Shown piece by piece: positions 21,023 to 26,088 of a stretch of DNA of 64,000 bases. Numbering within the stretch: position 1 is the first letter of the stretch; each line of letters opens with the position of its first letter. The notes beneath the pieces were generated by a model that saw nothing but the letters and a program-made list of their open reading frames with translations, had not been told where the DNA came from and ran no database searches. The stretch lies in NCBI RefSeq assembly GCF_016019885.1, contig NZ_JAEANY010000003.1:248001-312000 (forward strand). Reading direction: 5' to 3'. The translations under genes and the position numbers were made by a program. Source of the DNA: Aurantiacibacter sediminis. Its GTDB lineage: Bacteria > Pseudomonadota > Alphaproteobacteria > Sphingomonadales > Sphingomonadaceae.

Positions 21023-22189
<1,167 letters not shown>

Positions 22190-22198
22190 TTATCCACA
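22190..22198 (+). promoter_or_regulatory. Perfect DnaA box in the ccrM leader
   Basis: TTATCCACA, the strict consensus DnaA box, lies 16-24 bp upstream of the ccrM GTG start, next to its ribosome-binding site. It could let DnaA influence ccrM expression, but a chance match is possible. Confidence 0.5.
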
Positions 22199-22215
22199 GG
22201 GGGTAGAGTTCGCGG

Positions 22216-22347
22216 GAGTCCCTGGTCAAGCGGCAATTTTGCCGCGCCATACCAGAGCTAGAGAGGAACGAAACGAGTCCGGCACAACATATTGAGTCCC
22301 CCGCCCTAACGCGGACTCGAGATCATGGGGTGTGGCGCTAAGGACTC
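22216..22347. promoter_or_regulatory. Cluster of five GANTC methylation sites upstream of ccrM
   Basis: GANTC occurs at 22216, 22275, 22294, 22314 and 22343, five times in 132 bp of the ccrM upstream region, against roughly one per 280 bp expected at this composition. These are the recognition sites of the enzyme encoded next door, so methylation-sensitive autoregulation is a reasonable inference. Confidence 0.6.
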
Positions 22348-22358
22348 ACCTGCGCGCG

Positions 22359-23261
22359 CTAAACGGAAAAGGTCACTCCGGTCAGCTCTTCAGACTTGTC
22401 CCACAGGCGCTTGGCCACCTGCTCTTCCCTTGCCTGATAGGCGATAAAGGCTCGGCCCGAGCTATTGCCGCGCGCTTCCATCAGGCCGCGCGGCCCATAG
22501 TAATCTCCGCTCTCGGCGGCTGGATCGGTCGCGGCTTGCAAAGCGGGAAGCGCGCCCTGCTCAGAGGTGTTGAGCACGGTTTTCATAACAGGCTGCATGG
22601 CACTGCCATATTTCATATGGCGTGCCAGGTCCGATGCGGCGACGCCCGGATGGCACGCAATCGCGGCCACCCGCGAGTTGGCGGCGCGCAGGCGGCGGTC
22701 CAGTTCCAGCGCGAACATCAGGTTGGCGAGCTTGCTCTGCTGGTAAAAACGCCACGGCTCATATCCGCGATAGGCATCGAGATTATAAATATCGATCTGG
22801 CCCTTTTTATGGGCGATGCTGGATTGGACGACGACCCGCCCGCCCTTCTCTTCCAGCTTTTCAAAAAGCAGGGCGGTCAGGGCAAAGTGTCCGAGATGGT
22901 TCACGGCGAACTGCGATTCCACCCCGCCAATGCCGTGGTCCAGCGGCGGCACCATGATGCCCGCATTGTTCACGAGGATATCGATCCGCTTCTCAGCCTT
23001 GGCCTGCTCGGCAGCAGCATGAATGCTGTCCAGATCGTTGAGATCGAGCGGCAGGAAATCGAGCTTCGCCATCGGATATTCGGCACCGATCCGGTCAATG
23101 GCGTCTTGCGCTTTTTCCTCATTGCGGCAGGCTAGCAGGACCTTTGCCCCCACCCGCGCCAGATGCCGCGCGATTTCGAAACCGATCCCCGTATTCGCGC
23201 CCGTCACGATGGCGGTTTTGGGAGACTGTTTGGGAATATCGGTAAAAGTGAAATCGGCCAT
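22359..23261 (-). CDS. SDR-family oxidoreductase (retinol-dehydrogenase-like)
   Basis: 300-residue classical short-chain dehydrogenase. Cofactor loop TGANTGIGFE (20-29), NNAGIM, the catalytic serine in VVVQSSIAH and the YQQSK catalytic pair are all present; ACRNEEKA after the second strand suggests NADP(H) preference. The C-terminal part with YYGPRGLMEARG and AKRLWDKSEELTG is typical of the retinol dehydrogenase/protochlorophyllide-reductase-like group. The substrate is unknown. It sits between the antiporter and ccrM genes on the same strand. Confidence 0.88.
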   Translation of the reverse strand: MADFTFTDIPKQSPKTAIVTGANTGIGFEIARHLARVGAKVLLACRNEEKAQDAIDRIGAEYPMAKLDFLPLDLNDLDSIHAAAEQAKAEKRIDILVNNAGIMVPPLDHGIGGVESQFAVNHLGHFALTALLFEKLEEKGGRVVVQSSIAHKKGQIDIYNLDAYRGYEPWRFYQQSKLANLMFALELDRRLRAANSRVAAIACHPGVAASDLARHMKYGSAMQPVMKTVLNTSEQGALPALQAATDPAAESGDYYGPRGLMEARGNSSGRAFIAYQAREEQVAKRLWDKSEELTGVTFSV

Positions 23262-23321
23262 GAGGTGCTCCGCTGGAAGGTTCTAATCCAGCAATGCGCC
23301 GCGCGGCTCAAGCGTTCCGGC

Positions 23322-24242
23322 TTATGCGAAAAGAAGCGCGGTGTTGAGGGCAAATGCGCCGAGCAGCGCAGCGCCAAGCCAGCGGCTGATATGTTTGAAG
23401 AAACGGCATAGCAGCAGGATCAGCACGGCTGAGGCAAGCAGCACCGGCATTTCAACATCGATGAGCTCGGCCGAAATTGGTAGCGGCGCGATGCTCATCG
23501 TTGCCCCGCCGATCAGCAGGATATTGTAGATGTTGGAGCCAACCACATTGCCGACTGCCATTTCCGCCCGCCCCTTCAGCGCGGCAGCGAGAGATGCGGC
23601 GAGTTCGGGCAGCGATGTGCCGATAGCAACGATGGTGAGACCGATGACCGCGTCTGACACGCCGGCCAGTTGCGCAAGCTCGATCGAACCTGCGACCAAA
23701 AGCTGGCCACCGACGATCAATATGCCGACACCGCCTGCAAACAAGGCGACGGCCAGCAGCAGGCCGAGCGGCGGCGGGCTATCCTCGTCCTCCAGGCTTT
23801 CGGGCGGATGCTTCACGCGCCAGATGATGTAGACGACAAGCAGGGCAAGCAGCGCGGCACCAATCCACGGGCTTGCACCCTGCGAAACGGTAATCGCATA
23901 AAGCAGCGCGGTGGCCGCCAGAGCCACTATAGCATCGCGCTTGCCCACGCCGTGCATAGCAATGGGCGTCACCAGTGCGGTCGCGCCTAGGATCAGCAGT
24001 GAATTGGCGAGATTGGAGCCCACCACGTTACCCCAGGCAATGCCGGGGGAGCCGAGCATGGCAGCTTCGATGCTCGCCACCATTTCCGGCATGGAGGTTG
24101 CCGCGCCGACAATCACGATACCTGTCACAAGATGCGAAAGACCGAGCCGCTCTGCAATCGAGACTGCGCCGCGCACAAGCAATTCGCCGCCGACAAAAAG
24201 GGCGACAAGGCCGCCAATGATGCTTGCAATGAGGGTGAGCAT
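23322..24242 (-). CDS. Calcium/sodium antiporter (YrbG-like CaCA family)
   Basis: 306-residue inner-membrane exchanger with two inverted alpha repeats. The first repeat shows GAATSMPEMVASIEA and GNVVGSNLANSLLILG; the second shows AIGTSLPELAASLAAAL and GNVVGSNIYNILLIGG. These G-T-S-x-P-E and G-N-x-x-G-S-N motifs form the ion site of the K+-independent Na+/Ca2+ exchanger family. An acidic cytosolic loop (ESLEDEDSPPP) separates the halves. It begins 9 bp after rnhB, so the two are probably cotranscribed. Confidence 0.92.
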   Translation of the reverse strand: MLTLIASIIGGLVALFVGGELLVRGAVSIAERLGLSHLVTGIVIVGAATSMPEMVASIEAAMLGSPGIAWGNVVGSNLANSLLILGATALVTPIAMHGVGKRDAIVALAATALLYAITVSQGASPWIGAALLALLVVYIIWRVKHPPESLEDEDSPPPLGLLLAVALFAGGVGILIVGGQLLVAGSIELAQLAGVSDAVIGLTIVAIGTSLPELAASLAAALKGRAEMAVGNVVGSNIYNILLIGGATMSIAPLPISAELIDVEMPVLLASAVLILLLCRFFKHISRWLGAALLGAFALNTALLFA

Positions 24243-24251
24243 GGCGCGCTT

Positions 24252-24890
24252 TTAGAGGCTCAATTCCATTTGTGCCACTGGGGCGAAGGATCGACGGTGA
24301 AAAGGTGTTGGACCATGGACGCGCAGAGCCTCCATATGTTCCTTGGATCCATAGCCCTTATTGCGCTCCCAGCCATAGTGCGGATGGCGTTCAGCCGCAT
24401 CCACCATGATGCGATCGCGATATTCCTTGGCGATAATACTCGCAGCGCCGATGCAGGCCTCTTTTCCATCGCCGCCGACGATAGGTGTGGCGGGCCAGCG
24501 CCAACGATCGCAGCGGCCTTCGGGCGTGAGGTTCCCGTCGATCAGCGTATGGAGCGCGGTCTCGCCCACAGCTTCGCATAATCGCTCCATCGCCAGACTC
24601 ATCGCAAGCATGGTCGCGCCGAAGATATTGAGCTCGTCGATCGAACCCACATCGACCACGCCGATGCCGTAGGCGCAGCTTCTAAGGATACGCGTTTCTG
24701 CATCCGCACGCGCTTTCGCGGAAAGCTTTTTGGAATCGTTCACGCCATCGGGCACAGGCTCACACAGCACCACTGCCGCAGCGACCACGGGGCCCGCCAA
24801 GGGACCACGTCCCGCCTCGTCCACACCGGCCACCAGCGGATTTTTGCCCAGACGGGCACAAAAATCGGCAGAAGGCGTTCCTGACAGCAT
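24252..24890 (-). CDS. rnhB: Ribonuclease HII
   Basis: 212-residue RNase HII, which nicks RNA-DNA hybrids at misincorporated ribonucleotides. The DEAGRGPLAGPV motif supplies the first acidic residues, NDSKKLSAKAR and AASIIAKEYRDRIM follow, and HPHYGWERNKGY is the C-terminal signature. I start it at ATG 24890 (MLSGTPSADF), with a GGAG on the minus strand about ten bases upstream. A longer frame runs into the divergent gene and is rejected. The chosen start shares two bases with the start codon of the divergent PQQ dehydrogenase. Confidence 0.93.
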   Translation of the reverse strand: MLSGTPSADFCARLGKNPLVAGVDEAGRGPLAGPVVAAAVVLCEPVPDGVNDSKKLSAKARADAETRILRSCAYGIGVVDVGSIDELNIFGATMLAMSLAMERLCEAVGETALHTLIDGNLTPEGRCDRWRWPATPIVGGDGKEACIGAASIIAKEYRDRIMVDAAERHPHYGWERNKGYGSKEHMEALRVHGPTPFHRRSFAPVAQMELSL

Positions 24891-26088
24891 GACAAAGCAT
24901 CTCCTCGCCTCCGCCCTATCCCCGCTCGCCATCTTGCTCGCAAGTTGCTCGGGCGCGCAAACGGGGGAAACTCCCGCTCCATCAGCCTCATCCTCCAGCG
25001 CGATGGCTGGCGGCGAAATGATTGAATTGCAAAGCACTTCGCCCTTCGCGGCGGAGAGCCACGGCGCTTTCAATGAGCCATGGGCGCTTGCTTTCGAGCC
25101 CGGCACAGGCGTGATTTTCCTGACCGAGCAGCCCGGCACGATGAAATTCTATAATCCTACCACCGGCACCACCGGCAATGTCACCGGAATGCCCGATGTG
25201 GTCTATGCCGGCCAAGGCGGACTTGGCGCGATTGCGTTTGCGCCCGATTATGCGACGAGCAACATGATCTATCTCAGCTGGGCCAAGGATATGGGCAATG
25301 ACCTGACCGGCGCAGCAGTCGGTCGCGGCACGCTGGTTTGTGACAGCGAAACCGAATGCCGCGTAGAAGGTCTTACCGAAATCTGGCAGCAGAGCCGTGG
25401 CGGTGAGCGCCGCGGGCACTATTCCCACCGCATGGCATTCTCGCCAGATGGCCAGTATCTCTTTGTGACAAGCGGGGATCGTCAGGAGCAGACTCCGGCA
25501 CAGGACATGTCGAACAATCTCGGCACGGTCGTGCGCCTGAACCTCGATGGCACGGCCGCAGCCGGTAATCCCTTTGCAGGTCAGGGCTCGCCGCAGGACC
25601 AGATCTGGACATACGGCCAGCGCAACCTCCTGGGTCTCGATTTCGACAGCCAAGGCCATTTGTGGGAGCTCGAGCATGGCCCCGCCGGTGGTGACGAGCT
25701 GAACCTGGTCGTTGCTGGCAACAATTACGGCTGGCCGACCCGCTCCTATGGTGAAAACTACAATGGCGATCCGATTCCCGATCACACGGCGGGTGATGGC
25801 TTTGCCAAGCCGGCCATCTACTGGAACCCCGTCATCGCGCCGGGCGGCATGCAATTTTACGAAGGCTCGATGTTCTCCGACTGGAACGGGCAGCTCCTGA
25901 TTGCCAATCTGCGCACCCAATCGATCAGCCGCGTCACCGTGAATGCAGGCGCCAACAGCGCCGATGAAGCAGCGCGCTACGAAATGCCTGATCGCCTGCG
26001 GGATATTGCAATCGCGCCGGATGGCGCGATCTGGGTGATCGAAGATGGCGAAGATGGACGGCTGCTGAGGCTGACGCCAAAGGGATAG
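24889..26088 (+). CDS. PQQ-dependent sugar dehydrogenase, lipoprotein
   Basis: 399-residue soluble aldose dehydrogenase (glucose/sorbosone dehydrogenase family), a six-bladed beta-propeller that oxidises sugars with PQQ. A lipoprotein signal with lipobox LLASC (cysteine at residue 19) and a Ser/Ala linker precede the propeller, so it is membrane-tethered in the periplasm. Family signatures include NEPWALAFEPGTG, HYSHRMAFSPDGQYLFVTSGDR, YGQRNLLGLDF and LEHGPAGGDELNLV. Start ATG 24889 has GAAGG upstream. No PQQ-synthesis genes are nearby. Confidence 0.88.
   Translation: MTKHLLASALSPLAILLASCSGAQTGETPAPSASSSSAMAGGEMIELQSTSPFAAESHGAFNEPWALAFEPGTGVIFLTEQPGTMKFYNPTTGTTGNVTGMPDVVYAGQGGLGAIAFAPDYATSNMIYLSWAKDMGNDLTGAAVGRGTLVCDSETECRVEGLTEIWQQSRGGERRGHYSHRMAFSPDGQYLFVTSGDRQEQTPAQDMSNNLGTVVRLNLDGTAAAGNPFAGQGSPQDQIWTYGQRNLLGLDFDSQGHLWELEHGPAGGDELNLVVAGNNYGWPTRSYGENYNGDPIPDHTAGDGFAKPAIYWNPVIAPGGMQFYEGSMFSDWNGQLLIANLRTQSISRVTVNAGANSADEAARYEMPDRLRDIAIAPDGAIWVIEDGEDGRLLRLTPKG

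Follow-up and report, generated by a model that had tools for sequence, protein, structure and literature searches.

In Caulobacter, the gene for the GANTC adenine methyltransferase CcrM carries GANTC sites near its start. Its transcription is activated by CtrA (PMC3667746), the ccrM promoter has been covered together with GANTC (PMC2877005), GANTC has also been counted upstream of ctrA (PMC8116508), and a GANTC placed between the -35 and -10 elements marks one timing class of Caulobacter promoters (PMC4287350). In Caulobacter lacking CcrM nrdA falls, and the GANTC of the nrdA promoter is relatively conserved (PMC3973325), so that the nucleotide and methylation pathways already touch. Raised dNTP levels delay S-phase entry in Caulobacter through a pathway described by the authors as undefined, and deletion of nrdR gives a wider spread in soft agar, read as a longer swarmer phase; the main text of that study makes no mention of ccrM (PMC12186491). 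Paired 16-bp boxes are bound by NrdR from four bacteria when the spacer is 14-17 or 24-27 bp long, the Listeria protein binding with a spacer of up to 18 bp (PMC12051234), and a reconstruction of the NrdR regulon in Proteobacteria is without ccrM in its main text (PMC5343134). A repressor site and a methylation site are known to coincide in the E. coli sci1 T6SS promoter, where a Fur site is overlapped by a Dam site to form an epigenetic switch (PMC3145626). Our literature search, which lacked subscription papers, found no link between NrdR and ccrM in print, and the novelty of such a link is to that extent provisional.

The window analysed here is the whole stretch of 64,000 nucleotides of Aurantiacibacter sediminis DNA (contig NZ_JAEANY010000003.1, positions 248,001 to 312,000; C8:248001-312000 in our numbering). 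The ccrM product encoded in it has as its best NCBIfam match NF050803 (DnaMtaseCcrMCaul, E 8e-186), with a score of 617 bits, under the curated cut-off of 830, and the protein is the single match in the 2.67-Mb genome. Two genes at 22359-24242 separate ccrM from rnhB (24252-25139), one of the SDR family and one that by eye resembles a cation exchanger; the SDR-family gene is upstream of ccrM in the window, where many regions from outside the order have the end of rnhB directly before ccrM. The features of ccrM and its upstream region are as follows, in window coordinates.

21023..22174, minus strand: ccrM, a CcrM-type GANTC adenine methyltransferase of 383 aa with a GTG start at 22174, from the open reading frame, its translation and NCBIfam.
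22180..22185, minus strand: GGGAGT, a possible ribosome-binding site, as read from the sequence.
22190..22198, plus strand: DnaA box TTATCCACA (TGTGGATAA on the ccrM strand), between the predicted promoter and the start codon.
22201..22206, minus strand: predicted -10 element (CTACCC), a weak match 17 bp from the -35 element, placed by geometry only.
22206..22210, minus strand: AACTC in the place of a second core-promoter GANTC, the window being one base short of GANTC.
22216..22220, minus strand: GANTC site 1 (GACTC), a core-promoter site flanked by the predicted -35 and -10 elements.
22224..22229, minus strand: predicted -35 element, TTGACC, a conserved TTGAC block in the alignment.
22249..22264, minus strand: possible NrdR-like box, third in the series and 33 bp past the right one, with no conserved block in the alignment of relatives.
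22275..22279, minus strand: GANTC site 2 (GACTC), outer-right flank, followed by TTTCGTTC; in 35/78 sphingomonad regions, middle base C in 33/35.
22282..22297, minus strand: right NrdR-like box ACTCAATATGTTGTGC, the top-scoring single box of the 805 kb under a matrix trained on nrdA.
22294..22298, minus strand: GANTC site 3 (GACTC), at the inner end of the right box; in 70/78, middle base C in 70/70.
22314..22318, minus strand: GANTC site 4 (GAGTC), at the inner end of the left box; in 60/78, middle base G in 60/60.
22315..22330, minus strand: left NrdR-like box CCCCATGATCTCGAGT, degenerate in the window, 33 bp from the right box.
22343..22347, minus strand: GANTC site 5 (GAGTC), outer-left flank; in 69/78, middle base G in 69/69.

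The original prediction had placed GANTC at 22216, 22275, 22294, 22314 and 22343, at roughly ten times the density expected from composition; all five positions agree with the sequence, and five sites per 132 bp amount to about 10.6 times the expectation of 3.57 GANTC per kb. The window contains 63 GANTC in 64 kb (0.98 per kb) against 297 in dinucleotide shuffles, and 805 kb of the same genome contain 894 (1.11 per kb); as this genome-sample density is far below the composition value, the local excess at ccrM is about 34-fold. Uniform scatter would give 0.0165 clusters of 5 GANTC per 132 bp in the 805 kb, and besides ccrM such a cluster was found at one place only (L104:16574-16670). The cluster therefore stands out as the outlier it had been predicted to be, within the 805 kb sampled (30% of the genome) and ranked by sliding windows.

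The other cluster (L104:16574-16674; G000:C8:396574-396674) has its 5 GANTC in 101 bp upstream of an OMP_b-brl_4 / CarboxypepD_reg / TonB-receptor barrel gene, and contains GATTCCGTTCCGTTCC, which is similar to the GACTC-TTTCGTTC block of ccrM. Another GANTC cluster beside a cell-cycle gene lies at L127:17136-17228 (G000:C6:77136-77228), with 4 sites between genes that appear, by eye, to encode ribosomal protein S20 and DnaA. The ccrM upstream module as a whole has no further copy in the genome, the six other DNA matches being of 14-20 bp with E>1; a scan of 22100-22420 gave no sigma-70 consensus promoter or terminator, and for a structured RNA in the ccrM leader there was no Rfam match at gathering scores in 21900-22600.

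Conservation was addressed with ccrM relatives from a contig scan, the best 80 of 581, mostly Erythrobacteraceae and Sphingomonadaceae by title. Between 3 and 10 GANTC precede the inferred ccrM start within 300 bp in every one of the 80 (L001 is not counted here, the start is uncertain at some loci, and the upstream DNA of L025 extends over only about 175 bp). Counted within 240 bp in a set of 80 consisting of the window and 79 of these relatives (L025 dropped for its short upstream DNA), at least 3 GANTC are found in 79/80 and at least 5 in 65/80; the counts given over 78 regions also drop L006 and L036, which have no anchor. Among congeners, at least 4 GANTC lie upstream of ccrM in 26/28 loci with usable upstream DNA (L308, which is short, is left out); congener L291 has two, both inner sites missing, and congener L288 has none. 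The expected conservation in sister species is borne out, the array being kept in nearly all of the 80 order-level and 28 genus-level ccrM regions compared. In L288 (genome G192) the ccrM upstream region is without GANTC, NrdR-like pair or DnaA box, as if the module had been replaced, which makes this locus a natural test of the module's role.

The arrangement of the sites is conserved along with their number. With the right inner site as anchor, the inner-left site lies 19-20 bp before and the outer-right site 19 bp after across the 78 sphingomonad regions, and all four upstream positions occur together in 27/78. Positions and middle bases are kept across genera, whereas the spacers between them vary, and sporadic extra GANTC sites have a free middle base, unlike the four array positions; a middle base fixed at all four is more than methylation alone would need. 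A generic methylation cluster is ruled out by the fixed positions and middle bases in the 78 regions: the GANTC array upstream of ccrM is real, widely conserved, and of another kind. A TTTCGTTC block follows 25-32 bp after the right inner GANTC (about 22266-22273 in the window), a loosely defined pattern of this type being present in 56/78 sphingomonad regions; this conserved block is explained by none of the regulators considered.

Two inverted elements 33 bp apart resemble NrdR boxes, and the inner sites, 22294 and 22314, lie at the ends with which they face each other. The NrdR box consensus is acaCwAtATaTwGtgt. In the right element, GACTCAAnATsTTG, five bases (C, A, A, T and the final G) are conserved at 96-100% over 78 regions and the T that precedes TG at 82%, the columns of the left element being weaker, and the dyad-symmetric conserved columns at ccrM coincide with the strongest columns of NrdR boxes. 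This match was recognised only after looking at the region; with the consensus above, 0/400 column-permuted motifs reached the sphingomonad score. We also used a matrix seeded by that consensus and refined on the upstream regions of 20 hand-chosen class I nrdA genes across the class. In the 805 kb its two best pairs fall at the ccrM spot, with scores of 25.8 and 23.6, followed by 21.4 and 15.0; the top pair is 22249/22282, which includes the third, non-conserved box, and the second is 22282/22315. Scores in 78/80 sphingomonad ccrM regions exceed every one of 1185 control segments (highest 12.3), which were taken from the same loci with the ccrM region excluded, and 27/28 congener regions exceed the control 99th percentile, a left box standing at the 33-bp distance in 25/28. 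The third-ranked pair of the 805 kb (L095:17535-17581; G000:C8:137535-137581) has a 31-bp spacing and lies about 170 bp upstream of a gene that resembles rpsB, as named by eye.

The spacing of the boxes can be read from the GANTC sites themselves. Both inner sites are present in 61 regions, 20 bp apart in 52 and 19 bp apart in 9, which puts the box centres 33 or 32 bp apart and leaves spacers of 17 or 16 bp. When distances of 22-45 bp were scanned freely, the sphingomonad ccrM pairs peaked at 33 bp centre to centre, and the best family nrdA pair lay at 31-34 bp in 27/29 loci, some of these pairs being weak; nrdA pairs of the class (20 regions, spacings of 24-41 bp scanned) peaked at 31. At the nrdA of this genome the two boxes are 34 bp apart, an 18-bp spacer that is beyond the range common to the tested NrdR proteins. 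With the box consensus only 16/29 family nrdA loci had a pair of at least 29.5 at 30-33 bp, and a pair score of at least 30 was reached in only 4/30 loci of the first RNR set for the class; the family nrdA consensus scan and the outgroup pair scan covered 30-33 bp only, so that the spacings they return are not independent evidence. An nrdR gene is encoded at G000:C7:531904-532344, its product matching TIGR00244 over the cut-off as well as PF22811 and PF03477 (Zn ribbon and ATP cone).

The locus has a 16-bp palindromic consensus box (the right one, the left being weak), a spacing that puts both boxes on the same face of the helix, and a cognate NrdR in the genome. It differs from described NrdR operators in that the gene downstream is ccrM and not a ribonucleotide reductase operon. 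A ribonucleotide reductase target is usual for the known members and is not a structural requirement; what we propose is that the pair works like an NrdR operator, not that ccrM belongs to the ribonucleotide reductase regulon.

The overlap between GANTC and box bears on what is selected here. The right inner half-site deviates from the NrdR consensus precisely at the base that makes the GANTC: this base is T, creating GACTC, in 74/78 sphingomonad regions, the mirror base in the outer half of the same box is the canonical T in 60/78, and in the nrdA boxes of the class the equivalent base has consensus A at 0.60 and T at 0.13. Since the NrdR consensus is given up at the inner base to hold a GANTC, both properties appear to be selected, and the pattern points to selection for GANTC itself at the NrdR-like half-sites. 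Such overlap is also seen in 3/16 family nrdA pairs and at 15/56 boxes (offsets -1 and +12) of 28 outgroup ccrM pairs, with 7 more GANTC at +1; these 28 are the regions with a pair score of at least 30 out of 64 scored, part of them in coding DNA.

Closer to the gene, GANTC at +6 to +10 from TTGAC gave 68 counts over 77 sphingomonad regions, and a second core-promoter GANTC at +19 is present in 62/77; where TTGAC occurred more than once in a region, the copy followed by the largest number of GANTC was chosen, and mis-anchored regions count as absences. At 22216-22220 of the window a GANTC lies between -35 and -10 elements, both of them predicted, in a genome that encodes gcrA alongside ccrM, as in promoters of the GcrA/CcrM type. 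The combination TTGAC-n1-6-GANTC occurs in 32/64 ccrM upstream regions class-wide against 8/1138 control segments, and the core-promoter site accordingly looks old. The exact DnaA box was found in 49/78 sphingomonad ccrM upstream regions, 1/1185 control segments and only 5/65 outgroup regions; neither it nor the flanking GANTC sites are explained by NrdR. In some Sphingomonas loci (for example L062, L064, L065, L067, L070, L071, L075 and L080) the DnaA box TGTGGATAA stands between the positions of the two NrdR-like boxes and not after the core promoter, and the left inner GANTC is missing.

The CtrA-like sequence TTAACCAT is present in 28/78 sphingomonad regions and 0/1185 control segments, and absent upstream of the window's ccrM; the full CtrA site TTAA-N7-TTAA has an exact match in 0/78 sphingomonad regions. 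The window's ccrM promoter is in this unlike the CtrA-activated Caulobacter type. An undifferentiated cluster read by CcrM, GcrA and CtrA is not what the region shows, as the middle bases are fixed, two of the sites are built into palindromes that resemble NrdR boxes, and the window has no CtrA-like TTAACCAT. The methylation-dependent feedback on ccrM put forward in the original prediction remains a reasonable inference, given an outlier in 30% of the genome, conservation in sister species and genera, and a base choice that favours GANTC.

Across the class the picture is less regular. The outgroup set comprises 65 ccrM upstream regions (27 + 38); its counts omit L201 and L229 (no match), L230 (short, omitted from the 64) and L129/L130 (same family), and L200 was retained although its start is unreliable. 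At least 1 GANTC is present in the 300 bp upstream in 55/65, the upstream array being denser and more regular in sphingomonads than in these outgroups. On whole upstream regions the outgroup NrdR-box signal is strong (Mann-Whitney p 5.5e-12, 27 loci), whereas in the noncoding parts alone (24 loci) it is weak, with 25/400 permutations reaching the single-box score and 6/400 the pair score. Outside Sphingomonadales the left NrdR-like box often overlaps the 3' codons of rnhB. Some of the outgroup pairs counted, such as those of L194 and L211, are probably in coding DNA. As the outgroup signal is confounded by rnhB codons and weak in noncoding DNA, we make no claim of class-wide ancestry.

The ccrM region is best described as a composite promoter, in which a predicted core promoter has a candidate NrdR operator some 50 bp upstream of it. 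We consider it probable that NrdR represses ccrM through a methylation-sensitive operator set on a GcrA-type promoter, with binding, methylation sensitivity and sign all inferred from sequence. With ample dATP, NrdR loaded with ATP and dATP would bind the box pair and repress ccrM; its affinity would be altered by adenine methylation of the inner half-sites, so that the passage of the fork, turning full into hemimethylated sites, and remethylation by CcrM would switch the operator. The core-promoter GANTC may tie initiation to the methylation state through GcrA, and DnaA at the 5' leader box may restrain transcription near initiation. Taken together, these controls would time ccrM expression to replication and to the supply of nucleotides, and CcrM would feed back on the gene that encodes it. 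Some 50 bp or more separate the box pair from the predicted -35 element downstream of it, which means that either repression acts at a distance or the proposed sign is wrong. At the level of pathways, the locus suggests that nucleotide supply and DNA methylation are connected at ccrM. A bolder version, which we put forward tentatively and find somewhat doubtful, is that the methylation-gated NrdR operator makes ccrM a direct dATP-sensing target and, together with the known effect of CcrM on nrdA, closes a loop between nucleotide supply and methylation, and that the arrangement may be ancestral to much of the Alphaproteobacteria, the left box having lain originally in the end of rnhB.

Several other explanations were weighed against this one. 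That GANTC is merely dense in the ccrM intergenic region, by chance or mutational bias, might seem plausible from the general intergenic enrichment of GANTC in CcrM-bearing Alphaproteobacteria (PMC3973325) and from the one unrelated five-site cluster in the sampled genome, but it is contradicted by positions and middle bases that are conserved across genera when the spacers are not, and we give it almost no weight. A SeqA-like binder of hemimethylated DNA could coat a helically phased array and sequester the promoter after fork passage, and spacings of 9-11, 19-20 and 29 bp do recur, by eye, among the upstream regions of relatives; yet the array sites have a fixed middle base, for which a pure methyl-site binder would have no need, and the inner spacing is already explained by NrdR geometry. 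We know of no SeqA-like hemimethylation-binding protein in Alphaproteobacteria, and regard this explanation as very improbable.

The dyad could be the operator of another regulator, one whose site resembles an NrdR box and whose recognition sequence includes GANTC. NrdR accounts for neither the TTTCGTTC block nor the flanking sites, all of them conserved, which would sit well with such a regulator, as would the degenerate left box of the window; the fit in sequence and spacing to the nrdA operators of both class and family argues the other way and leaves another regulator unlikely. It is also rather unlikely that all sites serve the methylation-dependent recruitment of GcrA, the context of the inner sites reflecting contacts with GcrA or RNA polymerase. 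The presence of gcrA in the genome, the recurrence of GANTC right after TTGAC at ccrM across the class, and a fixed middle base such as a directional reader would need are all in keeping with GcrA acting alone, but the dyad and palindrome that extend beyond each inner GANTC would be left unexplained, as would the selection of this very spot by a matrix trained on nrdA, and the upstream sites start 46-114 bp above the predicted -35 element.

If an NrdR operator is indeed present at ccrM, it would provide a concrete and testable link from the dNTP level to the alphaproteobacterial cell cycle, and a case in which an enzyme marks the binding site of the metabolite repressor that controls it. It would also mean that GANTC clusters in this clade are to be read together with the operators that overlap them and not counted alone.

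Each of the known systems shares a part of this arrangement. With the NrdR operators of ribonucleotide reductase operons the ccrM pair has in common two 16-bp palindromes, the CwAtATaTwG core and a spacing near whole helical turns; it differs in having ccrM downstream, in the change of the inner half-sites to GANTC, and in lying well upstream of the predicted core promoter. GANTC near the start of ccrM is common to the Caulobacter ccrM promoter and to the sphingomonad regions, more than a third of which also have the CtrA-like TTAACCAT; the window, unlike Caulobacter, has no CtrA-like site and instead carries an NrdR-like pair and a DnaA box. GcrA/CcrM-dependent promoters of the ctrA P1, mipZ and podJ type share with the 22216 site a GANTC between -35 and -10, whereas the window has five sites, the other four lying upstream with a fixed middle base. 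The Fur/Dam switch is alike in that the site of a metabolite-sensing repressor is overlapped by an adenine-methylation site; it differs in both repressor and methylase, and at ccrM the controlled gene would be that of the methylase itself.
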